A stretch of DNA of 64,000 bases from contig OX637297.1 in the NCBI GenBank assembly GCA_951799445.1, positions 14,942,001 through 15,006,000 of the forward strand. Reading direction: 5' to 3'. The notes below the pieces were generated by a model. The model made no database searches and had not been told where the DNA came from. It was given only the letters and a program-made list of their open reading frames with translations. The position numbers and the translations under genes were made by a program. Positions 19,681-56,974 of the stretch are shown one piece after another. This DNA is from Pseudisothecium myosuroides (lineage: Eukaryota; Streptophyta; Bryopsida; Hypnales; Lembophyllaceae). The first letter of the stretch is position 1. Each line of letters starts with the position of its first letter.

Positions 19681-19798
19681 TTATCCTCGAACCGAAGATA
19701 ATAGATGGATTGCGTAGTCAGATGCTTGTTTTTTCAGAAGGACTGGATAGATAAAGGTTGTGTGGTTTCTTGAATTGTTATCCTCGGTTCGAGAATCA
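19681..19798. repeat. Two element A palindromes in an intron
   Basis: Sites start at 19681 (TTATCCTCG-AAC-CGAAGATAA, perfect arms) and 19778 (right arm degenerate), 97 bp apart. They lie between the coding segment ending near 19650 and the acceptor TGTGCAG at 19827. Confidence 0.8.
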
Positions 19799-24119: not shown

Positions 24120-24338
24120 ATTTTGTCGTGGGAGCACGCTTGGACTGGAATTTTATTTTTTTGGTACTCAATGTGTATATTGTTCATTTGTAAATAATAT
24201 ATGAAGCTCGGAGTTGAAATCATAATTCTTGTCGTGTGTTTCTGAAATTCTCACGCCGGTTTTCCCTACTTCTTATCTTGGCGTTTGTACTGCATTTCGT
24301 TGTCCTTAGAATAGAGGACTATTCCTACATGAGTCCTT

Positions 24339-25268: not shown

Positions 25269-25741
25269 GCAACAGTGAACAGTTTCTAAAGCCCTTGGCT
25301 TCGGAGTCTCCCTTACTATAAATAGCATGGTAAATAAAAACATACAAAAAATATGACTTAGAAAAGCAGAGTGCTTCATGTACAGTAAGCCTCTTCGTTT
25401 CTACAAGGATCTTAGGAATTCAGCATTTATAATTCATTGAGTTCACATGACTTTGTGAGCAAGAGTTACACACTCTTTTTGTACTCGAACTGTTGAGGTT
25501 ATTGGCTGTAAATTCACTTGCTTTTCTATTTGTAGAGTACGTGGCACGTAGTGTGAAGGATTTCTTATCTTGTTTTTATCTGTTCATGCATTCATGCTCG
25601 CTCTTTCCAAATCTGAAACGGAAATGCACTTGAAAACTTTTGTCCTTGGTTCTGGACGTGCTCTATTTATCTTTGGGTCGAACTCTACTAAGGCAATGGA
25701 GCTTGGCACCCTTCGTTTCAAAGTCTCAAAATGACCATTTT
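25269..25741. other. Element A right subterminal region
   Basis: Non-coding, probably the 3' UTR of the last gene plus subterminal DNA. A degenerate palindrome is at 25667 (TTATCTTTG-GGT-CGA then lost). A TGAGAC-like word on the minus strand (AAGTCTCAAAATG at about 25720) echoes the left subterminal repeats. Confidence 0.45.
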
Positions 25742-25766
25742 GTTTCAATTTAACGAATAAGGCCTT
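25742..25766 (-). repeat. Element A right terminal inverted repeat
   Basis: Reverse complement begins AAGGCCTTATTCGTTAAATT. It is perfect against the left end for 21 bp, 24/25 overall. The direct duplication GTTA follows at 25767-25770. Confidence 0.92.
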
Positions 25767-36059: not shown

Positions 36060-36078
36060 ATGCCATATTTAACTACTT
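36060..36078 (+). repeat. Element B left terminal inverted repeat
   Basis: ATGCCATATTTAACTACTT, perfect inverse of 56956-56974. The next nine bases are 7/9 similar between ends. Preceded by the duplication AACT. Confidence 0.93.
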
Positions 36079-37519
36079 TTGGACTTTCAATAGTCCAGAA
36101 GTAAAGAGGCGGTGAAATCCCCTGATGTTTTTCTATGGATCTGGAGATCTCCTGAAATTGGAACGCTTTGCATGCATCCAATTCAGCACCCACAAGTATG
36201 TCGGGGAGTGCTTCATGTGCTTGGAAATGAAAGAAATCGTGTAGTTGTAACATAGCGGATCCGTGGTAGAGTTCACATGATTGTATTGGGAGATCTGTGG
36301 ACCGGGTTTCCGTAGTTTAGGCATCCAATTTACAGCACAACTGAAGTCTCAGAACCTATCGAGAGATCCCCCAATGACCACCACTCGTTGCAAACATGGC
36401 TCCCATCCCATATTAATCCCTCAGTGAGCGCTGAACTTCACATAATTCTATCGGGAGATCCCCTGACGGGGTGGTAGAATATGAGTCGGCTTCACTGACA
36501 ATCTTGGTGTCGAAGTGGTACAATTTGATTCCTGTGCTAAAGTGCAAGTGATATCCGAGTTCATCAAGAATGATTCACAATAAGGCACAAGGGGGCCGAT
36601 TCTTTCAAAGATATATGGTATCCTGAGAGTTCAAAGGAAGTACACACAAGTAGATTTGAATTCAAACATCAATTGACAATTACCAAATGAGCAATTGCTC
36701 TTGGGAATAAGGAGTTCGGTTCTAGGATTCACCGGGAGATCCCCCGACGGACTGTTAACATAGTGGAGCTAAGGTAGTCAGGATATGATGAAGTGACAGG
36801 GGCATATCATAGTACTCACAGTGACATTTGAAGAACTGTAGACCACTGAGTTACAGGTGCTCAGACGTTCAACATACATCTGAAGATGAATAACGGCTAA
36901 GTAAACATAATATTCCATCCGAAATAATGACATTAGTTTGAGTTTGTGTAAAGAACATCAAGGTTCTTTCACTGCAAAAAATAGATTCGTACTTGGTTGT
37001 CCGCTATATAATTGTGAAGATGCAAAACCTAGAAGACTAGAATTCCAACAGTGTAACTGTGAGAGAAAAGAAATGCATTATTCAGACTCATTTGAGTGTA
37101 TGTATGACTCGAGCAATGTATTCTGTTCCGAACACAAACATAAACCACTTCCATTTCAGGAGACGAGAGGAAGAAAGACATCCCGCGCTTCTGCTATCAA
37201 GTCATTGCCCTCGTGCCGCACGCAAAGAATAGAAATCATAAACATATTAATATATTCATTGAGATTTATTTTACATATACAAGTCATAAAAAGTAGCTCT
37301 GAAAAATTAATCGAAGAACAGTCCTACTAACTCAACGGACTATACTTCGAAACCGTCACTTGCGGCTGCGCTTACTGGATGTAGAATGCGTCGTGCAATA
37401 TCACGATGGCAGTCGCGCCCCGCAGAATGCATCGTGACATCTCACGATTGCCGCGACGACCGACACAATGCGTCGGGAGTTCCCACGATGGCAGTAGCGA
37501 CTCCGGACTAGGCACTCAA
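36079..37519. other. Element B left subterminal region with palindromes
   Basis: No credible gene; the 130-codon frame at 36938-37330 has no domain and no homologous frame in element A. Palindromes start at 36358 (ATCGAGAGATCCCCCAAT), 36450 and 36731, plus weaker ones near 36110 and 36283. Three good copies at 37390, 37431 and 37472 stand exactly 41 bp apart, ending 31 bp from the transposase stop; their spacer sequences differ. Expected to include the 3' UTR of the minus-strand transposase. Confidence 0.65.
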
Positions 37520-40500
37520 TCATGGGTCCACTACGTTTGCCCGATTCAAATTCACTAAGGCAGCCTCCCTACTCTTCTGAGGAATCGTCCGTGATTTTTG
37601 ATCCACTCTCCTGGACCAATTCGCATACACTGCAGCACCCGCGTCCACCCATGTGGGGGGACTCTTTTCAACGACCCATTTACCGTACCAGCAATTCCGA
37701 TAAATCAATTCCAGACTCGTTTCGGAGTTATCGGGTCGCCAGTACTGAAGCAAGAACTTCCCGTTATTCACATCTCCTTCCAATTTGCATACAGTAGACA
37801 ATGCTCTTCCCTGCCAAACAGCACATGATTCCGGGACTTCCGGTCTGACAAGTACCCAACAGCCTGGTCGTATGTCTAGCCATGGATTAAAGCTTTCCCT
37901 TGGCGCTTCATTTGCAGGGCCGCAGTAAGGCTCCGGCTCCTCTTCTTCCTCCGGAATCACGTCCATGGGATTCACCGCCGATCCTGGGCGAGGGACTCCA
38001 TTACGCGCCACCCTCCAATCGTGTTGTGGCCAGAAGCCTTCCACCAACTCCGGAGGACACTCGGGTAATGGTTCCTTCAGCTCATCGAGAACACACTTCC
38101 AGTAATCCACATATGGACCGAACGCAGTTGCAAATCCCTCGCATCTAGAAATACCGTATTGCCAGTACTGAATGTATTTCTCGAGTCCTACCAGCATGAA
38201 ACCCTTGTTCAAGGTAGCTTTCCGCGCCGCTTCCCTTGCCTTCTCTTGATTTCCATGCGGTATCGGAACCTCGCTACCCCACATGGGCTTAAACGGAACA
38301 GGCTTTGGACAGCCGTGAGGGAGCATGGGCCGACCATTGCTGTCTGTCTTCCAAATGCGTTCAGAAGGTTTCTTCGACGGCAACCAGTTCAAATCAACTG
38401 CTGACCTTTTGAAGTTCATGACGGGGACCCTATCAGTGTCCACGTAGAACTTGAACAGGTGCATCTCCCCCAATCCAATTAATTTTTCCCCGCGATCGCA
38501 TTGGTAACCCTCCACGAACGACTTGAAATCCCCCACCTCTTGTATGAACTCCGGCATAAATGACAGTTCTTGGGACTGCATGAAGGCTTTCATGAGGTCA
38601 GCGACGACAAAAGTGTTCTTGGTCTTCAGGGCCTTGGAAAGGTGGCTGAAATATGCATCGATGTCCTCGTGAGTGTGTCCGACTAGTAGAAACCCAACCT
38701 GAATTTCCTTGAAGACACCTTGTGCAGTGAGCAAGGATAAGAACGCCATCAGATATTTGTTCTTGTTATCCTTGGCAGAGTTGTCAAGCTGAAGATATAA
38801 ATTTTCAGGAAGAGGGGTACTTCCGACCCGAGCTCCAGGTTCGGTGAGGGTTAGGCTGTCCATACATCTAGACTTTCCTCTAAGCAGTGCCTCGAACAAT
38901 GAGTTAGCCGGCGGATATGGAAAGAGGTCGCCTGCCTCTCGAATAGGTGGACCCTCCAGCCGGCGCAACAACCTTGCCAAAGACGAAATGGTGAAGTGGA
39001 GTCCGCCGGCCAACAAGATGGAGCATAATGGGCGTAAGCACCGTCACCATGGCCATGAGCTACCACTCCAGTAACGCTCATCGAAAGCTGCCCCAAATCG
39101 GCTGTAGCCTTCGTTGTCACCCGGAGTCTGGGTAGAGCCGTCTTGGATGTATCCATCTTGTCGTGAATTATACATAAAATTCTTCGAGGATCTTGTTTGG
39201 ATTCCTCACGCCAAGACGCATACAAACGATGGCAAGAAGCTTGGTGATTCAGATGATGAGTCCGCTGCTTCACGAACTCCACGTACTCGGGGCTTCCTTT
39301 TGGAGACTTCAGAATAAACTGCTGTAGGTCGTCGCACGTAGTACATTTTGCAAACGAACTTCCGACAGGCTTAATGGAGACATTGTTGAAGTGCTCCCGC
39401 TTGAGTCTACTAATAGTCGACTGGCTCACGGGCGGCAGACCGTAGTCGGCATTCAGTTGCACATCCAGAATTGGTACGCTTAAGCATCGGTACGAGCGAA
39501 GGGGAAGGAATGCAAATGACAAGCAATGCACCAGAACAGTGATCGTGATATCTCACGAACATTGATCTCGTCGGGAGATCTCACGATCAATAAAGCAGTG
39601 ACAAGAGATAAGGGGCACTACCTTGTTGGCGTCTGCTCGGACTCGTTTCCAATTTCTTCCGGGAGGAAGGAATTTTAGAGTGTCCGTTTGCCCGTTCCCG
39701 ATGCCGCGCATTTGGTGGGGCATTTGATCAGCATTCTCGTCAATAATGGCTTTCATAGTCCCAGCGACCTGAACAGTCCGAGCCCGCGGGCGCTTAACCC
39801 CTGTGTTTCCGTGCGTCCCTGATACGACACCGTCGTTGTACATCTCGATGTAACTGTGGTAATTGGACTTCGGGATGCCGTGAATTATGTGCACGCCTTG
39901 CCACAAACATCAACTCCCTCTAGCGTAACGTATTTCCACTTCCGCTCCCCGTACCTTTCGTGTAGTTGTCCTCCCACTCCAATCCCATATTCACGGCGCT
40001 CGTCAAACGACTTCAAGTAGTACTTCTGCCTTACTAACAGCGTGAATTCCTGGTTATAATGCTGACAACACAGACGTCTGCAGCACCTCTCCGAGCTGAC
40101 TTTCCAAATCTCCTCGTCTGCCGTTTTGCGGGAGTACTGCGATTCCTTCAGTTCCAGATTGGGTTTGCGAACTATAAACCGGTATGGTGCTTTCATTCTA
40201 CCTCCGAGGTAAGCGAGAGGGTCGTCCATATCGGGAATGCCGGCAAAATGATCCACTGTCTCCTTCAACAAACGGCCGTTGGGAAACCAGCACTCCAAAA
40301 TTGGCCACCTGTCGTGAGACATTATGGCTTCGATGTCATCCACAAAAACATCGAGGACTGTCACACCTATGAAACCTTCACCAAGTGTCTCCTCCTGGAA
40401 ATGATCCTCCGGACTCCAACAAATGATACGACCCGAGGAAACGAGGAGTCCGTCGGCGTCCTTCCGATGCACATCAAGTCCAAACCAGGCTCCTTGACAA

Positions 40501-40901
40501 ATATACGGACATGGATCCATCGGGGGATCCTCCGACGCTCTAACAACGTCGGCGGCTCTCCACAACACTACATTCTCTTGAACATCCTCTAATGTGTTCA
40601 TACCCCTCTGACAAGGAAAGCATTTCAAATCCTGGAATTTTAATTTGATAGAATGAGGTCGCACCAGAATGTAAATCCAAGGCTCAACAGGTATGGGCAC
40701 ACCCAGCCACTGGCCCTAGGGACGAACCTCTTTAACGATTCCTGATCCAACTTCACCGAATCTAGGCACAAACAGCTTAACCCAATCACCATTCACAAAC
40801 GCTTCACATCCACCGGTGGAATCTTGTGATTCACCCTCTACATGCGTTCCGTCCACATACGGAACTATCGCGTCAGCAGCAGACTCACAGAATGAATCCA
40901 T
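37520..40901 (-). pseudogene. Element B transposase (DDE-like, HTHEDIDA family), few lesions
   Basis: The start is ATG 40901 (MDSFCESAADA). An N-terminal beta-rich segment (GDWVKLFVPRFGEVGSGIV) is followed by a Cys-rich block (RCCRRLCCQHY), then PLPPVSQST-type spacer, IIHDKMDTSKTALPRL, LQLDNSAKDNKNKYL and VGHTHEDIDAYFSHL, which supply the three acidic positions, and a C-terminal domain GCWVLVRPE ... FLLQYWRP that looks SH3/BAH-like. Length is about 1070 codons. An intron at about 39479-39621 (donor AAG|GTAGTG) holds palindromes at 39542 and 39570; the frame across it is off by one base. Lesions: TAG at 40716 and frameshifts near 39890 and 39010. Element A has no intron at the equivalent place. 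The role as transposase is inferred from motifs and TIR context. Confidence 0.8.
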
Positions 40902-41061
40902 TGTCAGAGTGAGCTCTATCGAATCCTGTGGACGAGATTAAAACGATCCGTAAAACTTGTACATCATACATTCAAGGAGTTAGGCATGTCTACAGAAGAG
41001 CGTTGCATTCATGGCATTGTAACCTCACGACATGAAGGACAGAAGCATCAACGTCTGTACA
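40902..41061. other. Immediate upstream region of the element B transposase
   Basis: Non-coding. A degenerate half-palindrome (AACCTCACGACAT at about 41022) lies here. No TATA box is identified for the minus strand. Confidence 0.4.
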
Positions 41062-41821
41062 GTCGTGGGAACTCACGATCACACGGCAACGCAACATGAA
41101 CAAGTGAATCTAGTTACTGTCAACAAGAAGTTCGAAAGCCCAGACGCGATAGTGCGATCTCAAGAAGGCCGTCCCAGAACCACTGGGAAGAAGCCAAGGC
41201 ATCCAGGGAAACGTCGCAGAAGTTTAGAAGACATTAACCAAAGAACGTTCAGTACATCGTGGGATCCTACGACACTCTTGGCGCTTAATCACTTAAACCA
41301 GAGATCGCGGTATTCCAAGATCCTCCTAAGGGATCACATAGACCGCTACAGAAATACAAATGAAGTAGTGGGTCAAACTGAATCACTCTGATGAGTCCCC
41401 GACATATTATCAATCAATTGTGGGATCCCACGAGTTTGGTATCCTGTTAAATCCGGAAGACTGTTTGTGAACACCCCCGAGTAGGAAAACCTGGTGCCAA
41501 CCGAAAATGTGATCGTGAGATCCCACGATGCTTATACAAGATCAACGAGGAGTATGACGGTCATCGATAAGTAAGGCACCTAGACGTACACCAGGAAGGC
41601 CACAGCCAAGGTTCAATCGATCCTGGGATCCCACGACGAAATGATAGAACATCCCTCGACTACCAGACCGCGATATCTCTATACTCGAAGACTGAGAGGT
41701 CTCACCCACGCTCAATAAGCGGAGATCGTGGGATTCCATGATGCTTACGTATGTTGGATATATACACGTATTCTACTGTCGTAGACCGACGTATTTACCG
41801 AAGATCGTGAAATTAGGTTTC
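41062..41821. repeat. Palindrome array upstream of the element B transposase
   Basis: 18-bp sites start at 41062, 41149, 41256, 41304, 41417, 41512, 41620, 41725 and a half-site at 41804. The site at 41512 reads ATCGTGAGATCCCACGAT. Most neighbouring intervals fall between 87 and 113 bp (107, 113, 95, 108, 105). Intervening DNA is unique. The position relative to the transposase is the same as the array at 8819-9835 in element A. Confidence 0.82.
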
Positions 41822-43077
41822 CTGTCACTGGTTTCATGACATTCGACACTCTATAACTATTCTCAGTTACTGTATAAAAATTTTCTACTTTTAAAGTGGA
41901 TTTTGTTGTAATTCAGACTCCTGAACCTCCATGGGTACAATAAGAAACGTTCTTAGAAGTAGTTGAATTTGATGGCTGGGTTTTCCTCATGTAAGTCCGC
42001 CTAATTCCTAACGCAACCTAATTTCAGTACTTTGTGAAGACGTTCTGACCGGTTGTCATCCACGTACAAGGTTCTCATATCAACTTGCCTTCAGGGCAGT
42101 GCCGTCCCGCGATTCAAAAGGAACCTTGATGTCACCACAGCATGGTGATCCCTTAAGCACGTGAGTTTTTCGCAAAATGAGACCAATGCGCGAAGAAAAT
42201 TATTGCAGACTCCGTTTCACTTTCAATCTATGACATCCTCAATTTGTGACAGAGTGCAGTGGCATCAATTCGACTACAAAATCCTCAACATTCGGAATCG
42301 CATAACACTTGCAAGGGATGCATTCTTACCTTGCAGCAACTGGCTCGGTCAGAACTTCGTGCGCCTCCACGCCCACTCTGTCGCCAATGCTAGCAGACAC
42401 CCACTCGCCACTCCGTAGCCTGCTCCGCCTGTTCACATGTGCAATCGAAAAGAGCAAGCTCCAGGTTCTTTTCGGGTTATGAACCAGGTGGCTGGTTGGA
42501 ATTCTTCAGCTCTGAATTCCCGCCGCAAATTTTGAAATCACCAAGCGATCCTTGATTTCGAATGTTGGATGCGTTCTTGAATGCCGTGCCACAATCAACA
42601 ACGGCTGGGGGGTACATGCGGTCCTTCACTTCGGAAGTTGATTGCATTCTCGAATTCCGTGCATCTTCGACTACAAGGAAGGAGGGCGTGGGGCTCTTGA
42701 CTTTCTGACTGGAACTTCGCAAATCCAGGCTTCACTGAAATTCCGATTCTTCACTGACATTTTGAAATTCGCCGCATTCAAGGATGGTATCGTTGCACCG
42801 TTTTCTAGGAGTCAATGATGCTTTGACCAAAGCGGATCAAACTCTGAAGACTTTCACTTGACAGAATGTCACACGCTTCCCCGATCAATACTTGGAGTTC
42901 TTCCCCTACACGACCTGATCATACGTATCCTACAGAAACGAACTGTACCAAATCTCGTGAACCCAAAAGCTTGAGCACCTGAAACATGTGGAACACCTCA
43001 CTTACAAAAAGAATCAACAAAAATTTTGAACTCTCGAATGTTCATATTTGTTATTTTCTATTCCAATGAATGCAATC
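41822..43077. other. Leader/promoter side of the element B transposase, no gene called
   Basis: Mixed-composition non-coding DNA. 42480-42730 has loosely repeated words (ttcgaatgttggatgcgttcttgaatgccgtgc / ttcggaagttgattgcattctcgaattccgtgc), suggesting an old ~90-bp duplication. The minus-strand frame of 81 codons through it is not credible on its own. Confidence 0.4.
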
Positions 43078-43300
43078 TTAGGGTCTAGGGTCCACAGTCA
43101 TAGGGTCTACCATCCACGGTCATAGGGTTTAGGGTACATGTTGTAGTGTAGTGTTTACGGTTTCAAGGTCATGGTTCTTGGTTTCAGGGTTCAGGGTTTC
43201 AGGGTTTAATAGGATTTAGGGTATACAGTGGCAGCGCTTTACATTAACGTTTTCACGGTCTGCAGTTCATGGTTTACGGCTTTTAGGGTTTAGGGTATTA
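43078..43300. repeat. Degenerate TTTAGGG tract (element B)
   Basis: Variants of the telomere-type unit: ttagggtctagggtcc, catagggtttagggta, ggtttcagggttcagggtttcagggtttaa, ttttagggtttagggt. The tract is longer and more interrupted than its counterpart in element A (10689-10770), but lies in the same place between the transposase side and the satellite side. Confidence 0.7.
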
Positions 43301-43554
43301 TGAAAAATGAAAATGATGCTGATTATTTGTTTCCAATTTTTTCCTCAATTAAGTTTACGTCATCTCAGACTGCGAACATATAAACTTAAAATTCAATCTA
43401 ACTCAATATTGCTAATTAAAAATGTCAGTTAACAGATTGATTTCATATATAATTCTTGTTATGTAGTACAACATCCTATGGTTTAATATGGGACTTTACG
43501 GATTAAACAATGATTGACACAATTTTTATTTCATCTACGAATTTTTAAATAAAG
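43301..43554. other. AT-rich spacer
   Basis: No gene or repeat unit recognised between the TTTAGGG-like tract and the MITE. Confidence 0.4.
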
Positions 43555-43715
43555 CACCAGGGGCTTTTTTGCGTTTCCCTCTCTCATTTTTTCCTGCGTA
43601 AACGGCAATCCATGACTTCTCCTTGTGTCACAATCCGTTGACACAATGAAAAGTCATAAGATTGTTGTTTACATAGGGGAAAGTAAGAGAGGGAAACGCA
43701 AAAAAGCCCCTTGTG
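43555..43715. mobile_element. 161-bp CACTA-type MITE
   Basis: Nearly the whole element is one long inverted repeat: it starts CACCAGGGGCTTTTTTGCG and ends CGCAAAAAAGCCCCTTGTG, with arms continuing through cctctctcattttttcc and gtttac into the centre. CAC...GTG termini and a 3-bp direct duplication AAG (43552-43554 and 43716-43718) are the hallmarks of the CACTA superfamily. It has no coding capacity and lies inside element B. Confidence 0.85.
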
Positions 43716-44159
43716 AAGGACTTTGGATGTGCAATCATGATGGAACAAAGAACAAACTGAACCATTTGTTTATTTTGTATTTTAAATCTTAGTCTGAATG
43801 ATTTAATGAGTTAAATGCTTTCAAATTTGTTAATGCACTTTGACGGGTGATGAATGCTTAAACCTGGAATCATGTCATTCATGAGAATATTGTAGGTCAT
43901 GCAATCTTCATTTGGATTTTTGAAATGATCGAACATGGTATACATCTACATCATTATTTGACAACGATGTACGTAATATTGTTATTTGTTATTGTTATTT
44001 GAACAATCTCCACCGATGTGAAACAAAAAATCGGGAATGAAATGCGTGATGGCTTGAAACGGCTTAAATAATATTTAAAAAGTCATGAAATTTCATACAT
44101 GCATGCATAAAATTTGATTTAGAAAAATGTAATTGCTCCAACCTTAAATTCCACCACTA
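43716..44159. other. AT-rich spacer with a first diverged satellite unit
   Basis: 44030-44160 carries words of the adjoining satellite (cgggaatgaaatgcg, catgaaatttcatacatgcatgcataaaatt), so it is probably a diverged monomer. No gene seen. Confidence 0.5.
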
Positions 44160-44999
44160 TTTTCTAGTCTTGCCCGATGAAAAATTCTAATTCACATGAA
44201 ATTAAAAAAATTGGGAATGAAACGGGCCCTGCCATTGAACTATGGCTTCATTTTAAAAATGTCATGGAATTTCACACGTGCATGCATAAAATTCTACTGT
44301 GGAAGTTGGAATTGCTCTCAGGATTTAGATTCCACCATTATATTCACTTCTTGTCCATTGCAAAATTCTAATTCACGTGAAGAAAAAAAAATTGGGAATG
44401 AAACAGTCAGGCCCTGCCATGGAATGGCTTCATTTTAAAAACGTCATGGATGGTTCATACATGCATGCATAAAATTCTATTGTGGAAGTTGGAATTGCTC
44501 TTATGATTTAGATTCCACCACTATAATTATTCACTTCTTGCCCATTGCAAAATTCTAATTCACGTGAAGTAAAAAAAATTGGGAATGAAACGGGCCCTGC
44601 CATGGAATGGCTTCATTTTAAAAATGTCATGGATGGTTCATACATGCATGCATAAAATTCTATCGTGGAAGTTGGAATTGCTCTCAGGATTTAGATTCCA
44701 CCACTATTTTTACTTCTTGCCCGTTGAAAAATCCATCTTAACGTGAATTAAAAAAAATGGGGAATAAAAATATTGGGCCCTGCCATGAAATGGATTCATT
44801 TTAAAAATGTCATGGATGGTTCATGCATGCATGCATAAAATTCTATCGTGGAAGTTGGAATTCCTCTTAGGATTTAGATTCCACCACTATAATTATTCAC
44901 TTCTTGCCCATTGCAAAATTCTAATTCACGTGAAGTAAAAAAAATTGGGAATGAAACGGGCCCTGCCATGGAATGGTTTCGTTTTAAAAATGTCTGGCA
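44160..44999 (+). repeat. ~185-bp satellite array, element B
   Basis: Four to five head-to-tail units marked by cttgcccattgcaaaattctaattcacgtga, then gggaatgaaacgggccctgccatgg, then catgcatgcataaaattct, near 44170, 44350, 44540, 44720 and 44905. Words are shared with the satellite outside element B (gaattaaaaaaaattgggaatga; ggccctgccatg versus ggccctatattt), so element and flank carry related satellites. Confidence 0.8.
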
Positions 45000-45002
45000 A
45001 TT

Positions 45003-45135
45003 TCATGCATAAGACAGTGCATGTCGATATGGAAAAAAAGGTACAAGTTCAAAATACTCCGCTCATGAAGTGAAGAGGCATGAGCGGGAGATGTCCATGC
45101 TACGTTTTTCCGAACTTACCACGTAACCTAAAAAG
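45003..45135 (+). repeat. Left arm of a ~130-bp inverted repeat in element B
   Basis: Reads atggaaaaaaaggtacaagttcaaaatactCCGCTCATGA...ATGAGCGGgagatgtccatgctacgttttt...ccacgtaacct and is matched in reverse by 46075-46195. Its own centre is a hairpin, CCGCTCATGAagtgaagaggcATGAGCGG. Confidence 0.75.
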
Positions 45136-46074
45136 GTCCTCCTCCGCCTGCGGTTCATTCAAAGAACTCTCATTCCATAAATCATACATAAAACAGTACA
45201 TGTCAGTATCAAAAAAAGAATGTATAAGTTCTTAATCTTCCGCTCATGAAGTCATGAGCAAGAAAAGTCCATGGTACGTTTTCCAAAATTGCGATACATA
45301 TTACATGTCGATTTAAAAACAAAAAATTGAAGTTGTAACTTAATATTAATATTTTTTTCATAAATTGAAGATCATTTTTGAACGTCCTTTGTTTGACATT
45401 GTTTTTTTTAATTTCCATTTTTTGCAGGTAATTCCAAGATCATGTCCGGCTGGGCTTGGTGACGTACTTTGGAGAACTGTCTCCAGATATGCTCCAAAAC
45501 ACAAGTAAATTAAGTAGATTAACATCTAGTATGCCCCTAAAACCGTGGGCAATCACGCTCTTGTCCACATCTATTCAATGATCATTGCAAGACAATTAAT
45601 ATAGAAGACAATAAGATAATTTAGATATTATTTCTTCATTACACATTTGCCAATCATGTTGACTGTATACATGAAAATGATTGCCTAGGAGATGAATGAG
45701 AAAGAATTATATAGGACAATCATCAACAATCTTCCCTGTACTTATGTAATCGTTACAGTCATTTCTATTTAATTAAATAATTTGGACTAATCATTTTCTA
45801 GAAAAATGACACAAGTGCAAACTAGAAATCAAAGTTCATTATGTTAAAGGCATATTTAGCGGCTTGTAAAAAAATAATAATCATCGAAACCAAAGGTTAA
45901 ACGTAGAAATCAATGTAGCAATCTATGAAATTAAACCGCTCATGATTCGTAACTAATGTTTGCATGGGCAGAGTATTTAAAATAGTAAAACTCCATTTTT
46001 TTTTGTTAAAATTAACTCATACAACATCATGCATGATTTATGGAATGAAGGGTCTTTGAACCACAAGACCGAGT
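45136..46074. other. AT-rich spacer between inverted-repeat arms
   Basis: A second hairpin of the same type (CCGCTCATGAAGTCATGAGC) is at about 45239. Otherwise AT-rich and non-coding; the 69-codon minus-strand frame at 45418-45209 is not credible. Confidence 0.45.
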
Positions 46075-46195
46075 TTTTTTTTTTAGGTTACGTGGTAAGT
46101 TTGGGAAAACGTAGCATGGACTTTTTCCGCTCATGACTCTTCACTTCATGAGCGGAGTATTTACAACTTGTACATTTTTTTTCCATACCGACATT
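46075..46195 (-). repeat. Right arm of the inverted repeat in element B
   Basis: aggttacgtggtaagtttgggaaaacgtagcatggac ... CCGCTCATGActcttcactTCATGAGCGGagtatttacaacttgtacatttttttt is the reverse complement of 45003-45135 with modest divergence. The word ttacaacttgtacattttttt is shared with the satellite of element A. Confidence 0.75.
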
Positions 46196-46530
46196 TAAAA
46201 TAGTAAAACTAGCTTGCCTTATTTCATCAAAGTTACTTTACAAGCCATCAAAGTAAATAAACGTTTCTACAATTATTTTTATTTGTAGACATGGAGTTTC
46301 GAGAGTTCCAATAGCAACAATGTGCATAAAACGAATAACAAACAAATAACGAATAGTGCATTCTTATAGAGAAACAAAAAAAATGTTTGTAGTAATTATC
46401 GAATGTCATGAAATTAGTGAGGTGCAAGTGTGCAACCTAATTTCAGCATTTTGTGTAATGAGTGATTATTTAGCTTAAGCCTTCTAGTCAAGCCCTCTTC
46501 ATGATGTCAGTAATCATGAGGAGGGTGGGC
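46196..46530. other. Spacer before the leader region
   Basis: AT-rich, non-coding; catgaaattagtgaggtgc near 46415 recalls satellite words. No gene seen. Confidence 0.4.
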
Positions 46531-47785
46531 AGTCATGACCTGCGCTGTCTTGCACCTGACAGCGCTACGTCAGCAGACTCCCCCGCCGGTTTCCTCTCCT
46601 CTTGGTCTCCTTTCCTCCCCACGACGTCTACTTGCCACCCTTTTTTCCCGACGTCGTGTGCTTCTCCGTCTTCCTGATTTCGTGTGCTTCTCCGCTTTCC
46701 TTCCTCGCGCGTTCATTCTGGTTGTTGCAGTCCGTGAGTTTGGTTGTCTGAAGCTTGGCATTTTGAGTGAGTTTGGTTGTCTGGAGGTTCTCTAGCTGAT
46801 TGGTTCCATTTTTGTTGGCGGAGCGTTGAACTTCTGTGCGCGGAGCTGAGTGCGTAGGGGGACAATCGAGGAGCGTGTTCGAAATTCGCTGGCGGTTTAC
46901 CAGGCGTGTAGGTGCGCGGAGACCAACAACGCTTGCTCGTAGTGGAGTGCGGTAGTGGGCGGAGCGTTCCCTGGCGGAGGCGGTGCACGAGAAGAAGGAC
47001 AAGGTGCTGGACTTCACCCGGCTCATCCAACAGGTTAGTTCGTCGTAGCCAAACCAGCATTTTTATTTTCTTCATGTGACTCCATTACTGCAGTGAGGTT
47101 CATTTTATTAGTTCTTCGTTGTCGAACTTTGATCGCATGGAGCTGCGCGTTTGCTGTGGAGTTCAGCTTCTAGGCTTGGAAAGAATTGATGATCCCATTC
47201 AAGCTTGTAGATTGCATCATTCTAGTACATGGGTACAATGGATGTTTAGCACTCGCCTTCCTCGCAGCTGTAGGCTCTCCTCACGCATCGTAGTTCTCGG
47301 TTCATATGAATTGTAGACCCTAAAATGCTAAGTAACCTTGATGTAGTTCACGAACTAGAATTCAATGTGTATGGATTGCTGTGAGTGTTTGAATTGAAGC
47401 AAAGTGAAGTAAAGAATGGAAATGTTGCTCCCAAAGAGGAATGGAGCGAAGAGTTCATTGTATATTATTTAGTTAGATAGTACTTGTTTGTGAATGATAT
47501 TAGGAACATGGTTTGTGCAGGGATTTTATGACTATGATCAGACACGCTTGTTTTCTGTGCGATAGGCTACTTAGTCTGTCACTTTAGATTTAAGTTTACC
47601 TTCTCTTCAATTAAATTCACTTGGCTAGTCATGAAGAAACAAGTTAGGAGTTTGTGATTCTCAGTGAATGATTGAAGCTACAATTTCTTCTGCATTTGAA
47701 TTTCATGCAACAGTCTTTCGAAGAGCAGAAGGGCATTTTTGTAGTAGCTGAAAACAAGGCCGGACCCGTGCAAGCGGAAGCTACG
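46531..47785 (+). promoter_or_regulatory. GC-richer leader/promoter region of the element B cargo genes
   Basis: Composition shifts to GC-rich at about 46535, with pyrimidine-rich stretches (ttcctctcctcttggtctcctttcctcccc). A candidate leader exon ends at CAACAGGTTAG near 47035 and a further leader exon starts after CAACAG near 47713. The first in-frame ATG of the ParB/methyltransferase-like gene follows at 47786. The leader is the counterpart of 16501-17560 in element A. The frames through it are leader, not proteins. No TATA box could be chosen. Confidence 0.5.
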
Positions 47786-47838
47786 ATGGCAGCAGCTCCA
47801 TCCCAGCGTATAGCAGACCTCCCAGTTTGGAAGGACCC

Positions 47839-48861
47839 GTAAGTTACTTTGAACTATATTCTCATTACTTTCCGTTTCTTGCTTGCAATGTCTAGGTTAT
47901 AAACAATAATTAGGGTATGGCTGTTTGCAATTGCATTGGTACGCACTTTGTTGAAAACGAGGGTAGTAGAGCCTCTGTCATAGTCGCTGTTATAAACATG
48001 GCCGAGAAATATGGTAGTACATATGCCGAGAAGAACACACGATAATGAGTACGTGACTCTGTTATCGCGGATAGTGACCCTAAAACCGTGCATTGTGGGA
48101 TCCCACGACAGGGCAGTCCCTGTGTAGATTCGAGCATCGTAGGATCCCTGACTTGAAACCCTAGCCGCCCACCACTACGCGGCCACACGAGTTTTAGGGT
48201 TTGTGGCCCATCGTGGGATCCCCCGATGATAAGATGTGAAGATGCAATCTAAATCCACACCACATATTAGGCACAGACCAGGCAGCGGATTAGTAACCCA
48301 TCGTGGGATCCCCCGATGGAGGATAGTAAAGACCGCGCCTGACCCAGACTTAACAATTAGAAGGCCACCTACATAGAGCATTCAAGTACTAACCCGTCGT
48401 GGGAAATCACGACGAGAAAGTCTAGTGTGGGTAGAGAAATTGAGATGTAGGCAGGTTAACAAATAGCGCTGATTATGTGAACAATCAATCGTGGAATCCC
48501 ACGACAGACAGTAGTTTCACAGATCATCACCGATCACCTTCTAAGATATTCCAATATCCATTCTATGTTATTTGGTGCCGTCGTCATATTCTGGGACACC
48601 TTCAGTTAGTGAGTTGAGATGCAGTAACCTCCTGCCCACTATTGTCCGTGAATGTAACCGATTGTGATATCCCACGACAACGATAATTTGTGAAACCAGG
48701 TCATCAAAATGATCACAAAACCATTCCTTCTCTTTCATAACATCCGTCGTGGGATCCCACGACTAAGGATAAAAATTAAAGTTAGAACGGGAATAATATC
48801 GCACCACCATCTGCTCTATCGGACAATGTGGAAACTAACATCTCTTTCTACCATGCTGCAG
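47839..48861 (+). other. Intron 1 of the element B ParB/methyltransferase-like gene
   Basis: Donor GTAAGT at 47839, acceptor CATGCTGCAG ending 48861; splicing joins KDP to EMQVVEG in frame. The intron is a carrier of palindromes (48092-48763) and otherwise non-coding. Confidence 0.75.
48092..48763. repeat. Eight palindromes in intron 1 of element B
   Basis: Starts: 48092, 48136, 48210, 48300, 48396, 48488, 48661, 48746. Several have perfect arms (for example 48746, GTCGTGGGATCCCACGAC). Intervals 90, 96, 92, 173 and 85 suggest a spacing near 85-96 bp with one missing site. Spacers are unrelated in sequence. Confidence 0.87.
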
Positions 48862-50250
48862 TGAAATGCAAGTCGTTGAAGGTCCTGAAGAACTGACACC
48901 CAGGAAGCTTGGTACCTTCATTGACTGCTACATTACGTCTTTGGAGTACACAGGTCCACATCCACCACAAGCCTTTTTCCGATGCAACGAGCAGATTATG
49001 CATTGGGGAATCGCCTGGAAAGCAGAGAGTGACGGCTCCGCCACTATTCTTCCCACGCTGGTGAATGGGACAATGGGGCACCCAACTGCCGGACTGAAGG
49101 TACTAGAAATGAAGGGACTTAACGACGACACTGCGCTCCTAGTTGTAGAGGAGAAGGTTCCCCTTTCCGGGGAGATCATAACGTTTGGGCTGATCCTTGA
49201 CTACGCGAAGTTCAGCCTCACTCTTTGCAAGTCTGTGACTGCAAGGTCACATCTGATGTGCAAGGACACGTCTAAGCCTCGGTGGAAGCCTAAGGAGCTG
49301 AAGAACCAGTGGGACATAATCCTGGAAGACTTAAGAGATACAAATGCTCCCCCGCAAGCCGTGACAGCGGTTGCTCCCATGCCGTCCCCAAAAAAGAAGA
49401 CCAGGAAGAGGAAGTCTGCAGTTGGTGCTCCCGGGGACGAAGTTGAAGCCGCAGCTGGGACATCCGGAAAGAAGAAAAAATCGGATACCCCGCTTCCGCT
49501 TCACAGGGCTGTGGCTCTAGGGGAGGCAGACGTGAAGAAGATGACACCGGAAGAGATGAATGCGATGAGGACCCTGTACGAGAACTCTTTCGGTGGCCTA
49601 TACAAATGGGGCAGGAAACCAGTCTGTGACAGCAAAGGAGAGCTCATCCGCGTGCACTATGACTATCTGCACCAGGCACCTGTAGCACTACTTGTGTACA
49701 GGGGAATTCAGGCAGAGCGGCTTGATTCGCTGACGAGGAAGGCACGAATCACACCTGATTATGACTCGGAGAACAGAGTCATAACAGTGCTTCCCCTTAA
49801 AGCGGGACCCTACGGCCCGGCGAAGGTAGTGTCGCACTATGAGAAGCAAGCGCCGAAGAAGGAGATCTTTGAAAACCCCAAGACGCACTACTACATTATA
49901 GGGGGCCAACACACTGTCCAGGCATTCAAGGACCTGATTAGGCTTGGTATGATTCCCGAGAAGGACAAGAAGCTCGCCTCCACCTTCAATATTTTACCAG
50001 TGTGGACGGACAAAGATCACCATGGAGACCTAGTGCACTTCTCGCGGGCGCTGAACCAAGATGTCATTGGCAAATAGAAGGAGCAGAACTTCACGAAGCA
50101 GCTGCTGAACGCAAGAATCAAGTCGCGGAGTATGGGAAGTCCACAGCCAGCAATATTGGGCAGATCACACTCAGTAGAGTACAATGTAAGAATGCTGTTG
50201 GAGTTGACATATTTTTTTTTGGGGGTCATTAGAGTGCGTTCTACCTAACC

Positions 50251-50570
50251 ATCGTGGGATTTCCCGATGGTCCTGCACTACATCTCAGACCTTCATTACG
50301 TTAGAACCTCTTCATCGTGGGATCCCACGACTAAGTCCTAAATTTGCGATATGGGGTAGTTCTACGTTAGAATGCGGCAATCGTGATATCCCACGACTTT
50401 AACATATGAAATACCAGATAGCGCTAGTTTAGTTTTTTGTACTCGCGGTTCAGTGCGTGGTGTTTTCAAATTGTGCATGTAGAAGATAGTGGCTCATCGT
50501 GATATCTCACGACTGCCTATTGCCTAAACGACTTCCTCGTGGTAACTGACTGATCGTGGGATCGCACGAC
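50251..50570. repeat. Five palindromes in intron 2 of element B
   Basis: Starts 50251, 50314, 50380, 50496 and 50553, all within the intron 50179-50644 (donor AGA|GTACAA, acceptor GGGCAG, phase 0). The site at 50314 is ATCGTGGGATCCCACGAC. Intervals are 63, 66, 116 and 57. Confidence 0.85.
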
Positions 50571-52361
50571 TGTTTATTGGACTTCTTGTGTTCACGTGGT
50601 CTGTCTACGGATCGCGTACTGACTGTTACTCCTTTGTTGGGCAGGCGTTTCAGCCGTCGGTGGCATCAATATTTGCGGGAGCAAAGGCGAAAGACATCGC
50701 CGAACTGAGAATCCCTCTACTCTTCCTGGAGAACGACGCTGATGTTCAAAGATGGATCAAGATAGAGGAGAGATTCATGGCAAGTCTCCTTCCCGACGCG
50801 GCGGGGTTGGTCGATGTATCGGGGAGTACGGATCGCAAACCGTTGGCGGCAAACAACTTCAAGCCCCTTTATGGACTTAGACCGGAGGACATCAATTTCC
50901 TTGCAGATCAAGTCGAAGCCCAAGTTATTAGCATGAAGACCTCCGTCGCAAAGTCAAAATCACAGAGAGGTGGAAAACGAATTATCTCTCTTGCAGACGC
51001 CGGCGCCAAAATTCGGTTGGTCAGGGTGATGAAGAACGAACTCTTGTCACACTACAAGGGTCATCTGCTGCCGGCGAGGAGGGTGGAGTACGAGCCTTAC
51101 CCGGACTCTTTGTGGGTCGAGTTTGCGACGGAAAGGAACATTGAGCACGAGGATGTGGAGATGTGGGTGAACAAGGCAATGGAAACCCCTGCTGGAAAGA
51201 AGTGGTTGCAGGATCGGACGAAAAATCTCAATAGGACGTTCGACCCAGCTGACCTTCCGTAGTCGGTGATCCAAATGTGGGAGTCGTATTTCAAGCTGAC
51301 GGCGGAGGAGGAATCGGTGCAGGCAAATGCACGTGGTTTTTCAGAGCACTATCTCTGTAAAACCATGGACGAAAGCAGTTGGGACATCAGCGCCACCTTG
51401 GCGGCAGAGGATGTCATAGCGTGGAGGGGAAAGAAGAAGCAGCACCTGTACATCTGGTTCACGTTCGAGTCAACGTCCTGCGGGTGTCGCGCCAAAATTC
51501 TTGAAGAGTGGAAGTTGAAGAGACTTTTTGACGCTCTGGAGTACTATGATCCGCAGGACCAGACAATCGTAGCCCGCTCTGCCGCCGTTCTCCTCACAGA
51601 TGCCGAAGGGTTCCACATGATTGTGGCTCACATAGAGAAATGAAGGATGGAAGTCAAAGCTAGGTTGTGGGACTGGCACGTTGTGAACTACATGGCAGGG
51701 CCCGAAGACTTCTTCCCTCAAGCTCCGGCCGGAGACGGGTACAATGTCTTTGTTGTCTTCATTTTTGGGCACAGCAAAGAGCACGAGCGGCGGACTTGCT
51801 TCAAAAGCTTCTTCCCGGGATTGGACCGCCTGACTCAGGTGTACAAGGCGGAAGATATGCCGGACGACTACCCTTACTGGCGTCGGCAGCAGATGCCGTA
51901 TCTGAAGATCAGCAATGCGTTGATTCTATTCGAAGGACTAGCTTGCAGCGACAATGTCTTTGTGAATGTCAATGGGGGTCCGGAGTTCACATATCTGGGC
52001 TTGGTATGCACTACAACGATTGTCTTTTCTTTTGTTCTTCTGATAATCTCCTTTCGATTTCGGGGATTTGAATGTCACTAATTTCCGGTTGTTGTATTTT
52101 AGTATTTGGAAGGTGGTAAAGTGCTGGAAGTTGTCGATTCAGCGGAAGCGAAGACGTTAAGTCAGGTCTTTACCAAGCAGATTTGGGACGACAAATATGC
52201 GCGGGCGGCACCCCTTCCTCTTCCGGAGGCCGAACACAAGGACAAGGAAGTTGAGAGTGATGATGAAGATGCTGTACTCGAAGACATCACCCAACACAGA
52301 CCGGGTTTAGGAACAAGGTCGGTTGAGCACCCTAAGGTTAGTGTGCATTATTTGCTGAACC

Positions 52362-52379
52362 ATCGTGATATCTCCGGAC
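52362..52379. repeat. Single palindrome in a 125-bp intron
   Basis: ATCGTGATATCTCCGGAC lies in the intron 52337-52461 (donor AAG|GTTAGT, acceptor CTCGCAG). The neighbouring 99-bp intron 52004-52102 has none. Confidence 0.7.
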
Positions 52380-53066
52380 GTTGGGCAGCGTATATCTCTT
52401 GCATGCTAATCTGGGAGGGCAAACTGAGCTCAATTGTGGTGGGATATTGCCTTTCTCGCAGGCGAAATCTCCGACTCCCTCCCCCCGGCGAGAGCAGCTG
52501 ATTGATCCGCCAAGTGCAGCAGAGGATGCAGACGAAGTTCCCGAAGTTCATTCGGCGCAGGCGAAGCTGGCAGATCTGACAGAGGAGCATGAGAGTAGTC
52601 CAGAGCCGTTACCAGCCGAAGAAATTGTAATTCCAATATCGAGCGGGTCGTCAGGCGAAGTGAATTCAGGGATCCAATTAATGGACCCAAGGATATCCAA
52701 GAGGAAGCCGCTTAAGACGCCGGTCAAGGAACCCGACACCGCAAAGGATACTGGGAGCACAAAGGCGGCCAAGCGAGCGCGGAAGACAGCAGGCGAGAAT
52801 CGGAAGGGGGGGACCTCCAAGTGGACTCCAAGTAAGTCGTTGGTGCAGCGCAAACAGTCGCCAGCGAAGCCGACTGGGAGTCCCAATCCCGAAGCATCAG
52901 TCGCGGCAGAAGCGCTTCTGACTTGTGCCTTGGGACCGTTACCATCTAGGCCTGACAAGTCGACTCAGCCGCAACAGGAGGATGCGTAGGCATCTCGTGC
53001 TTCAGGAGCTGACAGACAGCTTCCGGACCTCGACTTATTAACCCTAGAAGACACTCACCGACCAGC

Positions 53067-53408
53067 ATCGGGGGATTCCACAATGACGAACGAGTCACTG
53101 GTCAAGAGCGGGGAGGATGCTGCCGACCTCAGCGAGGGGAGGAAAGAGTCAAAGGGGGATGATGACCACCTCGGATCGGGGGATCCCACGACGATCCATG
53201 CATTACCTGTCGAGACTGAGTTAGTTGTCTCTCGACGTGGTGCATTAAAGGATGACCAAGGCCGGACACCGGGACCTGAAGGATCGGGGGATCCCACGAT
53301 CGTTGAAGAGTCAGTGGTCTCAATTCATCATGGCGATCCGGCAGAGAGCGAGGGGGGTGAACACCAGGAAGGAGTGGTTGCATTGTCTTCGTCGGGGGAT
53401 CCCACGAC
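53067..53408. repeat. Four palindromes exactly 108 bp apart inside an exon
   Basis: Starts 53067, 53175, 53283 and 53391; each interval is 108 bp (36 codons). In the reading frame each site encodes SGDSTM, SGDPTT, SGDPTI or SGDPTT. The 30-residue spacers between them are unrelated, so this is not a peptide repeat that dragged the DNA word along; the DNA word and its distance are what is conserved. Confidence 0.9.
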
Positions 53409-53830
53409 TGTGCCAGAGCGATTGCTCCCGCCGATGGGCATCACGGTTGCTGTACTGAACGACACCCTTGTTGACTTGGTCCCCCTGAGTTCCAAACCTG
53501 TTCCTGGAAGGAAGTGTAAACCTGTCATAGGGCGGGCGAGGATTGTCGACATTGCTTCACTGGCCTCTAGTATTCCACTGGAGGTTGCAGGAGAGGTGGT
53601 TCCTGATGACGGTGAGTGCAATTCTGACGAAGTGCTAGAGGCCATACCTTACGAGGCCGAAGAAATAATGAAGTTTTGTCTTGTTGATCGTATGAGAGCA
53701 TTTGGTCATTTACCGAGTCTAAACCACTATGGGAAGAAGCGTCTCGATACCAACAAGGAAATTCATTTGGAATCCGTAAGGCGAGCGAACCGTTTCCTTT
53801 ACAAGCCCGTCTTTAAATACTTATTTCAGG

Positions 53831-54840
53831 ATGGTCCGCGTGCAGTGTATGATGGAGGGGATCCACCTGATGCGGAGGGTGGTGCCTTCGAGCGACGACG
53901 AGCTTGAGCCGGGATCTTTGAGTGGTGACCAGCGGGAAAGAGGACCAGTGAGCGCCGACGAGAGAGGAAAGGGGCAAATGCTCGTCGAGAGGAGGGGGGA
54001 AGGATCAGTGAGCGGCGGCGAGAGGGAAAGAGGACGATTGAGCGACAAAAGGAGGGCGGAAGGGTCGCCAGCTTGTAGCGTCCGAGCTCCCGCAGGTAAC
54101 ATGCCTACATTATTGTCAATGTACATACGAGATAACAAATCTTGAATTGGCCGATCACTAACTCTGTGCTTCTCTTGTATTCTGCAGTTTTTCGAGTGCC
54201 TGCTGAACCGGTGGCGAAGTCATCGAATCAGGTAGAAAGGCGGCGGTATTATGTGGTCTTTGACCTTAATGGAGTTCTTGTTCACAGGTCATTCAATGAG
54301 TTGAACAGACGCATCGTAACACTTCGACCGAATGTTCGTCAGTTACTTGACTTTGTGCACAGACATGCAAACATTGCATTCTGGAGCAGTATGACACCGG
54401 CAAATGTGACGAAGGTATTGAATCAAATGCTGCCGGGGACGTCTGTTAAGGCAAAGGACGTGCCTGTTCTCACGCAAAAAGACTGCACAAAGTCGTCCTA
54501 CAGAGACCCCAAACACCCGGACAGGCCCTACTTCCTCAAGGATCTAAATCATTTCGCCACTAAGCTGGGTTTGAGGTCAACCAAGAATGTTCTACTCGTT
54601 GATGACGATCCACTTAAAAACCTCCTGAACGATTGTCATAGCGCCATTTTCCCCCGCAAATTTGAAGGGGACTGGAAGGACCAGTACCTTGTGGGGGTGC
54701 TCAGTCCTTGGCTCGGAGGTCTGTTTAAGTCACAGGAAGTTGTGCCGGCGTATGTCAAGAAGCATCCGCTCCACAATGGTCTGCCACCGGCGGTCCCGTT
54801 GACCAGACCGGGGTCTGACATTTTGAGGGCAGTAGTTTAG
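53831..54840 (+). CDS. Element B HAD/FCP1-like protein, intact, one intron
   Basis: Exons 53831-54095 and 54188-54840 (918 nt, 305 residues; junction phase 1, donor GCAG|GTAACA, acceptor TTCTGCAG). The ATG at 53831 directly follows an acceptor-like TTATTTCAG, so an upstream leader exon is possible. The first ~90 residues are charged and disordered (repeated GERERG-type words). YYVVFDLNGVLVHRS is HAD motif I with DxN in place of DxD. NIAFWSSMT (motif II-like), a Lys in the LTQKDC segment and NVLLVDDDPLKN (motif III) follow, then LSPWLGGLF. The fold is FCP1/SCP-like. Loss of the second motif I Asp predicts weak or no phosphatase activity; phosphopeptide binding is possible. The intact frame contrasts with its damaged neighbours. 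An alternative is fusion to the preceding disordered exon. Confidence 0.7.
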
Positions 54841-56011
54841 TTTTGGTTTCTCTTCCTCGACGGACTTCATCATGATATCTCACGATCTCCTTTTGGCGTG
54901 CATATTATTGCTTGTAGCTTAAAACTCTTGAACATACTGTAAATATTGTAAATGCATTTTCGAAATACTGGACATTCTTTGTTTGTAGGAGGCATTGATT
55001 CTGCCTCGTAGTAAATGTGAAAATAAATTTTTTTCCTAAATGCCTTTGATTAAGATAATTATGAGTTCGAAGGGATCACCTCGACCTTGACTATTAATCC
55101 GCGTGCATGCACATCTAGAGATCTAATGGTATACCGTGGAAGTGGATTCTATTGGTAGATCGGACTGTTCTGGGCATTTATCCTTGTCTTTTAAATTTAA
55201 TGTGAATGCATTTCCGGTGCATGACCCTCACTTAGAATTGTTTTCTTATTCTTTGTTTGCAGCTTTAATCTAAATTTGGTTCTGAAATTGTTTATCATAT
55301 TACTCGGAAGAGTGGAATTTTTTGAACACCTCAATAGATTTTAACACTGGGCGTCATCATCTTGCGCGGCAAGCTTCATCAGGAGATCGCACGATACGAC
55401 GTGACGTGTGAACATTGGAATGTAGTTTCCATCCTTGTATTGTCTCGTGATATTGTTTTTGTACTTGTGGATGACAGTGAAGTTGTAGTTGTGCTTCTAC
55501 TGTTTGTTTGGGAGTTCTCCTGCAGTTTCGATTTGCTGAAGTACGGATTTGAAATTGATAATTTTGTCCTATGTCTTCGGCTTGATCGGAAGATCTCATG
55601 ATCATTTTCCCTTGCATTGAATTATTAGTCTTAGGCGGATTATGTAATGTCCATTTTTGTTGCTTCAATCAAATGCAATTAAATTTCTGCTGCGTAACTT
55701 CCTTTGCTCGAGTATTTTCGGTCTTCTAGTATGTCACCCTAAACCTTTTTTTTGTATTTGACGCAAATTCTAAATCTGCATCCCTTGTTAGTGCTGTATT
55801 CTGGGCTGCAGTGACACCGTAGAAGTATTGCTAATTTCCTTGCACTATGCAGCAAATAAGACATTCAGTCGCTGTTCTTCAAATAACTACCCATGCGTAT
55901 TTTCAATTAGCGGTTCTGTTGTATTGCATATTGGTCGGGGGATCTCACGATCAATTGACGTCGTTTTTGTATGTACATATCTGCGTACTGAGGCTTACTT
56001 GGTCTTTGCAG
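54841..56011 (+). other. Non-coding region between the two HAD-like genes of element B
   Basis: Contains palindromes at 54869, 55378, 55585 and 55934 and AT-rich stretches that may include the poly(A) region of the first gene and a leader intron of the second, which ends at acceptor GTCTTTGCAG (56011). The frame at 55362-55601 is not credible. Confidence 0.55.
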
Positions 56012-56494
56012 AAGGCGATGCTCTTAGTACTAACAGGGGATCTCTGCGTGAAGGGCGGTGTGGCGGATCTCCCACAGAATATCGAAATTCGGCCCGGCTT
56101 CCGTGGTCTTCTCCTACATTTCGTTCAAGAAACTCACTGTGGTTTGTGGTCCGCAATGCAACCTTCAACACTAGCCGCTCTTCTTCGACGTATTCTACCG
56201 CCGGAAATTCTGTCAAGGTTTCTATTTTTTGCCGGGTCTGACAATCCACAGAAGAACCAGGTGTATCCCCATCGTCGTGCAATACTGAAGACTGTCTTGA
56301 ACATTCCTCGGACGCGCAGGGTACTCTTGAATAACAGTGTTGTAATGCTTGTCCTAGATCCTCTTGATTGGGAACGTCCGCACTTGCTTCGACCGGCGTT
56401 GCATGTGAGGGATGATGTAGATCCTGTAGAGTTAGATCGTTCGCACATTATAGCACCGCCTTTTGATTGGTCTTGGGCCCCAAAAAACATGTAG
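56012..56494 (+). pseudogene. Second HAD-like protein of element B, active site lost
   Basis: After the acceptor at 56011 the frame reads KAMLLVLTGDLCVKGG, then IRPGFRGLLLHFVQET, CGLWSAMQPSTLAALLRRILP, KTVLNIPRTRRVLLNNSVVMLVL and ends AAPPF-like at a TAG after 56491. This follows the intact HAD protein step by step (VVFDLNGVL, LRPNVRQLLDFVH, IAFWSSMTPANVTKVLNQMLP, LGLRSTKNVLLVDDDP). All acidic catalytic positions are replaced (DLNG by LTGD, DDDP by LNNS). The frame is open for 160 codons, so it may still make a pseudo-enzyme; the first exon is not identified. It lies as last gene before the right TIR. Confidence 0.6.
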
Positions 56495-56955
56495 TTGGAA
56501 GTGGACTAGCTGGGTTATATATCACCTGTTTGTTGCATCCAAATGATTATATAAGTGGCGAATCCACCTTTTCTATTTGACTGTAATTACACTTTACCAA
56601 ATGTCTGTAATTGCATTTTGTTGCTTCATCCATTCTTTTGTGTTATGTGATACTTTGGGAAGTATCTTCTGAGCTCTCCCGATTTGTGATGTCGCATATT
56701 AATGCAACCCCGGATACAAATGTACCGCTTACAGCAAATGTCGGAGTTGACATCATCTCAAATTCATTGATTTGTTCGAACACTCTATCCCGAAGGAGTA
56801 TATTTCCTTGCATCGGGAAATCTCCAGACCACTTAGCATCCCAAAGCGATTTAAATGTCCTTTGAACGGCATTACGGACTCATTGTACATACCATCGGGA
56901 AGATCTCCCGATGGACAGGACCTTCACAAAGTCCAGAATTCCCCGTAAATTCCAG
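56495..56955. other. Element B right subterminal region
   Basis: Non-coding. Palindromes at 56812 (degenerate) and 56894 (ATCGGGAAGATCTCCCGAT, near-perfect, 19 bp) lie close to the right end. The last site is 62 bp from the TIR. An 84-codon frame at 56611-56865 is not credible. Confidence 0.6.
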
Positions 56956-56974
56956 AAGTAGTTAAATATGGCAT
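56956..56974 (-). repeat. Element B right terminal inverted repeat
   Basis: AAGTAGTTAAATATGGCAT, perfect inverse of 36060-36078, followed by the duplication AACT at 56975-56978. Confidence 0.93.

Follow-up and report, generated by a model that had tools for sequence, protein, structure and literature searches.

Why should a plant transposon carry some forty copies of one palindrome along its whole length? The question is raised by a 64,000-nucleotide stretch of the moss Pseudisothecium myosuroides (GCA_951799445.1, contig OX637297.1, positions 14,942,001 to 15,006,000; hereafter the window), which holds two large transposons, A and B, each strewn with palindromes of its own. A first-pass annotation, made from the letters of the window, had proposed that sister elements with non-overlapping motifs represent co-evolved, family-specific recognition pairs. 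The reading that we favour, tentatively, is that the palindromes are family-specific address tags for an element-encoded protein, most likely the one with a ParB fold, which would keep the element's own copies active; here the identity of the binding protein, the binding itself and its effect in cis are what we infer.

Element B is a complete DNA transposon of 20.9 kb (36060..56974), bounded by the inverted repeats ATGCCATATTTAACTACTT(C/T)TGGA and by the target duplication AACT (36056-36059 and 56975-56978). Three further full copies align to it at 91-96% identity, each with a 4-bp duplication of its own (TTGT in copy k2, AGGT in k17 and AAGG in k43), and in the genome as searched (388 Mb in 222 contigs) the end repeat occurs, with up to two mismatches, 516 times in forward and 507 times in reverse orientation, the reversed control giving 0. 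The B site is an imperfect 18-bp palindrome with the consensus RTCGKGRRATCYYMCGAY. The 18-mer quoted in the first-pass annotation has no exact occurrence in the window and 21 matches with one to three mismatches, where 0.02 are expected. An iterated symmetric weight matrix yields 40 sites at a score of at least 8.5, or 38 at a score of at least 12, all within 36139-56829, against averages of about 2 and 0.65 in control sequences of equal length; a degenerate consensus, run over the whole window, yields 39 sites with up to three mismatches (13 with none), all within 36109-56829, against an average of 0.55 and a maximum of 2 in 60 shuffles of element B. These counts, set against shuffled and reversed controls, led us to reject chance or low complexity as the origin of the palindromes. 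They come close to the roughly 42 copies announced, the centres GGATCC, GATATC and AGATCT are all present among the sites, and no B site lies elsewhere in the 64 kb, as the claimed confinement to the element had it; the announced span (36358..56912) fits that of the outer sites, but the element itself runs from 36060 to 56974. The other full copies carry 40 (k17), 39 (k2) and 41 (k43) sites at largely matching positions. Within B, sites and genes are laid out as follows:

36358..36748, no strand: B sites of the left end (36358, 36450, 36731; weaker ones at 36139 and 36109), by weight matrix and consensus
37390..37489, no strand: three B sites at 41-bp spacing, immediately downstream of the transposase-like gene, by weight matrix
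37523..40901, minus strand: transposase-like gene of several exons, with B sites inside at 39542, 39570 and 40519; from PF25273 and reading frames, start codon from the sequence
41062..41742, no strand: eight B sites (six strong, two weak) on the upstream side of the transposase-like gene, by weight matrix and consensus
48092..48763, no strand: seven B sites ahead of the plus-strand gene's first large coding exon, by weight matrix and consensus
48866..50074, plus strand: first large exon of the ParB-like protein, ended by a premature stop in the window copy; from an AlphaFold model, VIA-align, homologues and a longer frame in another copy
50251..50570, no strand: five B sites in the intron that follows the first large ParB-like exon, by weight matrix and reading frames
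50645..52005, plus strand: continuation of the ParB-like gene, interrupted by stops in the window copy; from reading frames, another copy and a model that resolved no domain structure
52990..53904, plus strand: coding frame with four B sites (53067-53408) at exact 108-bp spacing, translated as repeated SGDPT-like peptides; from the frames
54136..54837, plus strand: exon of a NIF-type phosphatase (Pfam PF03031, E 1.6e-15)
54869..56829, no strand: right-hand B sites (54869, 55378, 55585, 55934 and 56812), by weight matrix and consensus

Sites thus lie in an intron (50251-50570) as well as in a coding frame (53067-53408), as had been claimed. The accompanying claim of a promoter-side position holds for the six to eight sites, depending on the threshold, upstream of the transposase start (41062-41742), and fails for the 6.3 kb of 41743-48091, which presumably contain the 5' part of the plus-strand gene and where there are none. 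The flanks of most pairs of B sites are no more similar than random sequence, the only clear exceptions being 37390, 37431 and 37472. Two other features of B were seen in passing: tandem repeats of about 180 bp at 44025-45000, whose number apparently differs among B copies, and near-identical inverted arms around a short loop at 43555-43716, perhaps a small nested element.

Is the motif a property of the B family, or of the genome at large? Its 16-bp core, with up to two mismatches, has 3242 matches genome-wide, against 47 for the reversed control. Places with the exact core were classified site by site on contig C1 up to 52.58 Mb, and all 15 loci are B elements, B fragments or miniature inverted-repeat transposable elements (MITEs): five B copies (k2, k17, k18, k24, k43), three B matches (L057, L062, L063) and seven MITEs (L008, C1:44470289, L056, L058, L059, L060, L061). 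One cluster (C1:51823200-51838363) was read at its first site, L063, its remaining sites being assigned by a spacing equal to that of known copies. A common genomic repeat unconnected to B is hence excluded for exact-core loci in these first 52.6 Mb; no relatives were found in viral or prokaryote contigs.

The MITEs, absent from the first reading, are the strongest new evidence. They measure about 200-290 bp and have no genes; L008, for instance, holds one of 248 bp that has the two B ends, is flanked by a duplication of CTTT and contains two B sites. A DNA similarity search, in which 40 of 559 first-look candidates were scored, returned 40 near-full matches, L008 included. All 20 of the 40 that were fetched carry one to three B sites (up to three mismatches), their number varying by a 24-bp unit, and 19 of the 20 have an exact 4-bp duplication. 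As the first MITEs had been found through their sites, with the ascertainment bias that this entails, a second set was drawn by end sequence: from 100 exact ends listed, we took two pairs on C3 that face each other at close range, together with ten C1 ends of the TTTTGGA type for which no inward-facing partner lay about 21 kb away. Each of these 12 loci has at least one B site, where 0.09 are expected, although in four (L071, L072, L077, L078) the best site has three mismatches. Ten of the 12 have both ends, eight of these with an exact duplication (L071 and L078 have a single end), and ten align to the L008 MITE nearly end to end at 70-79%. Besides full sites, L067, L068 and the L008 MITE show degenerate half-sites (such as ACATCAGGAGATC) that follow one another in rows at intervals of about 20-25 bp, which gives the impression that the MITE interior was assembled from one-sided or decayed sites.

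The B motif is also constrained. Across six B copies, two of them partial, non-CpG positions changed at 31 of 2934 places in motifs and at 305 of 15504 in flanks of 1-50 bp (p 0.0004), tested counts being back-calculated from rounded rates; without C-to-T and G-to-A changes the figures are 11 of 2934 and 194 of 15504. CpG decay is 0.096 beyond 600 bp from motifs and 0.060-0.076 nearer to them, but beyond 600 bp A/T positions are also more variable than at 51-600 bp.

A second, unrelated motif marks the sister element:

1848..25766, no strand: element A, with ends AAGGCCTTATTCGTTAAATTGA, duplication GTTA and 23 palindromes of its own; from sites and end searches

The A motif is a 21-bp palindrome, TTATCYTCGRNYCGARGATAA, whose 23 sites (8819-24883) all lie within A; with up to one mismatch it has 1183 matches genome-wide, against one in the control. 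Searches for the A end give 79 and 84 occurrences, against 0 in the control; among 66 exact A ends, 36 combine into 18 inward pairs spaced 19.7-31.5 kb. In the window no B site lies within A and no A site within B, in agreement with the claim of non-overlapping motifs. A-type loci elsewhere keep the motif (20 sites in L032, 11 in L033, 15 in L034 and 13 in L035; controls below 0.1), although L032 and L033 align to the A of the window only over stretches of about 94-306 bp. There is a hint of finer variation at the variable places of the half-sites: C stands at both in 10 of 11 L033 sites, whereas the left one is T in 18 of 20 L032 sites. Some L032 sites are spaced by 21 bp and 94 bp, and its two matches to the B consensus, each with three mismatches, are chance-like. 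Two A-type MITEs, about 256 bp long and found through their sites, have two A sites each and duplications read as ATAA and GATG; L066, a further candidate, was rejected, being a site array within a larger stretch. Plus-strand frames at 4200-7200, between A's two transposase exons, are perhaps a nested element, and a palindrome of another kind, AGTGGC(A/G)GGCC(T/C)GCCACT, stands at 6833 and 61535 in mirrored surroundings.

That A and B are sisters, as claimed, is borne out by related genes in both. The transposase-like gene of B contains DUF7869 (37523-39043; PF25273, E 8.2e-37, 127.1 bits) and so does that of A (134 bits), both above the curated cut-off of 26; in the Pfam scans it matched DUF7869 and no model for Mutator-like elements (MULEs), and our literature search found no paper on DUF7869. 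A NIF phosphatase domain (PF03031) occurs in B and in the A-type locus L032, and the NIF-type frames (54136-54837 and 23287-23850 in the window) read FDLNGV in A, B and L032, presumably in the position that DxD usually takes in HAD phosphatases. The third shared protein, claimed to be ParB- or methyltransferase-like, turns out to have the ParB N-domain fold in its predicted structure from B (AlphaFold model and VIA-align), with KorB among the structural matches. ParB sequence models found no match in the Pfam scans, nor did solved ParB sequences in the PDB sequence searches, and among 20 proteins scanned, which did not cover every exon, there was no methyltransferase. Conserved GGQHT or NGQHS in the ParB-like proteins probably occupies the place of GERR in ParB.

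How do motif and protein go together? The ParB-like proteins of A and B are homologous (E 3e-12) although their motifs differ, and identity among three A-type proteins is 31-40%. In translations of related proteins the A palindrome is spelled exactly in four of ten A-clade database proteins, where the frame runs beyond the exon end, and in none of 25 B-clade ones (0.01 in shuffles); with one mismatch there are seven cases, one of them B-clade, against 1.5 in shuffles (maximum 6). The B motif gives two exact cases, one in an A-clade protein, which against 0.3 in shuffles (maximum 3) is not significant, and 11 against 11.1 with one mismatch. From these sequences, one clade retains one motif across much protein divergence while another clade has another, a single A/B contrast and not a test of covariation.

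What, then, are the sites for? In the reading that we favour, a dimer of the element-encoded protein would bind the symmetric sites and act in cis on any site-bearing DNA, full elements and MITEs alike; a site-bearing copy would stay accessible (anti-silencing), and only the protein's own family would be served. We lean towards it because the sites span the whole 20.9-kb element in all copies examined, with 39-41 in each of the three further full copies; because all 15 exact-core loci classified on C1 are B-derived and the MITEs retain sites in both samples; because motifs change less than their flanks; because a ParB-like domain is encoded whose bacterial relatives bind palindromes (PMC8367383); and because homologous A and B proteins go with differing motifs while the A motif persists across the diverged A-clade proteins. 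That gene-less elements keep their sites argues for an action in cis on DNA. The proposal of recognition pairs is supported in part: private motifs confined to their own families, sister elements and the ParB-like domain speak for it. Several results weigh against the favoured reading. CpG decay stands at 27 of 452 in motifs and at 67 of 887 in flanks; the difference is not significant (p 0.31), so no clear local footprint of protection from methylation is seen. Foldseek gave the ParB-like model no match in the PDB at E <= 0.001; nucleotide-binding residues of the protein are apparently altered; and the model of its next exon, with a predicted local distance difference test (pLDDT) score of 43.8, was too poor for a structure search and resolved no DNA-binding domain. 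The MITEs, moreover, are also compatible with a role in transposition itself.

That role is the core of the foremost rival, a doubtful one in our estimation: the sites would be accessory transposition sites like the subterminal TNPA repeats of En/Spm, at which an element protein gathers the ends, with internal copies as spares or by-products. MITEs indeed consist of little beyond ends and sites, and TNPA repeats are cis-determinants of excision and transposition that differ among CACTA families (PMC2613891). Most B sites, however, lie far from the ends, over 20.9 kb and in introns and a coding frame, where joining ends does not need them; a distribution over the whole element speaks more for the maintenance of active copies, as with VANC, than for the joining of ends, as with TNPA sites. 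The model for another rival is provided by the KorB operators on plasmid RK2: the sites might serve as operators of genes on the element itself, a view suggested by the clusters that precede the transposase-like gene or lie in ParB-like gene introns, and by KorB among the structural matches. We consider this improbable, given sites in a coding frame and beyond genes and the lack of any in the 6.3 kb that precede 48092; and as gene-less MITEs retain sites, regulating the element's genes cannot be their sole role. Equally improbable is a host protein as binder, or a passive repeat spreading by tandem duplication, since, for all the tandem gain and loss seen (108 bp in the coding frame, 24-bp MITE units, 21 and 94 bp in L032), most B site pairs have flanks with no more than random similarity, motifs change more slowly than the sequence beside them, the A motif persists where non-coding DNA ceases to align, and a single host factor would not be expected to account for a genome having two private motifs that are unrelated.

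Known systems offer partial parallels. VANDAL transposons, named in the first-pass annotation as the nearest analogue, are MULEs, and no MULE model matched the transposase-like gene here. According to PMC5735166 and PMC10398659, each VANDAL family in Arabidopsis has a private motif that is enriched among its copies, multiplied by tandem repeats and recognised by a sequence-specific VANC protein. A and B motifs are likewise enriched in their own family copies and rare elsewhere. In contrast, VANC motifs as given there are short (YAGTATTAY, AGTTGTCC) and of single orientation, while ours are 18-bp and 21-bp palindromes also found in a coding frame and MITEs; A and B have a DUF7869 transposase-like gene and a 4-bp duplication; and anti-silencing, demonstrated for VANDAL in these sources, is for A and B proposed by analogy. 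In En/Spm and other CACTA elements with TNPA-like proteins the repeated motifs differ by family and are retained in short derivatives, but are subterminal rather than element-wide (PMC2613891); CACTA ends and a 3-bp duplication are absent here, the ends being ATGCC and AAGGCC and the duplications 4 bp. With bacterial ParB, Noc and KorB, element B would share the predicted ParB-like fold and palindromic sites in cis to the protein's own gene; it differs in being a eukaryotic transposon, with ParB sequence models unmatched, GGQHT or NGQHS at the probable place of GERR, and no DNA-binding domain resolved in the model. ParB loads as a clamp at its palindrome and then slides along DNA (PMC8367383); a clamp of this kind would explain how sparse sites could act over 20 kb. 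A ParB/KorB-type clamp as self-recognition, loading at private parS-like palindromes, spreading, and either shielding its own copies and MITEs from silencing or singling them out for transposition, with sister families ignored, is nevertheless an unlikely version of events. In the literature consulted, with subscription journals and preprints outside its scope, nothing on ParB with transposons, ParB or palindromes in moss, or palindromic MITE motifs described such a system.

If the favoured reading is true, these moss elements would, outside VANDAL, add a further case of sequence-specific transposon self-recognition, one whose protein fold is familiar from the segregation of bacterial chromosomes and plasmids. 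At 200-290 bp and with one to three sites, the MITEs are small enough for direct tests of the function of a private motif, and A and B, whose two protein-site pairs are matched and share a genome, would be useful for asking how such pairs diverge.

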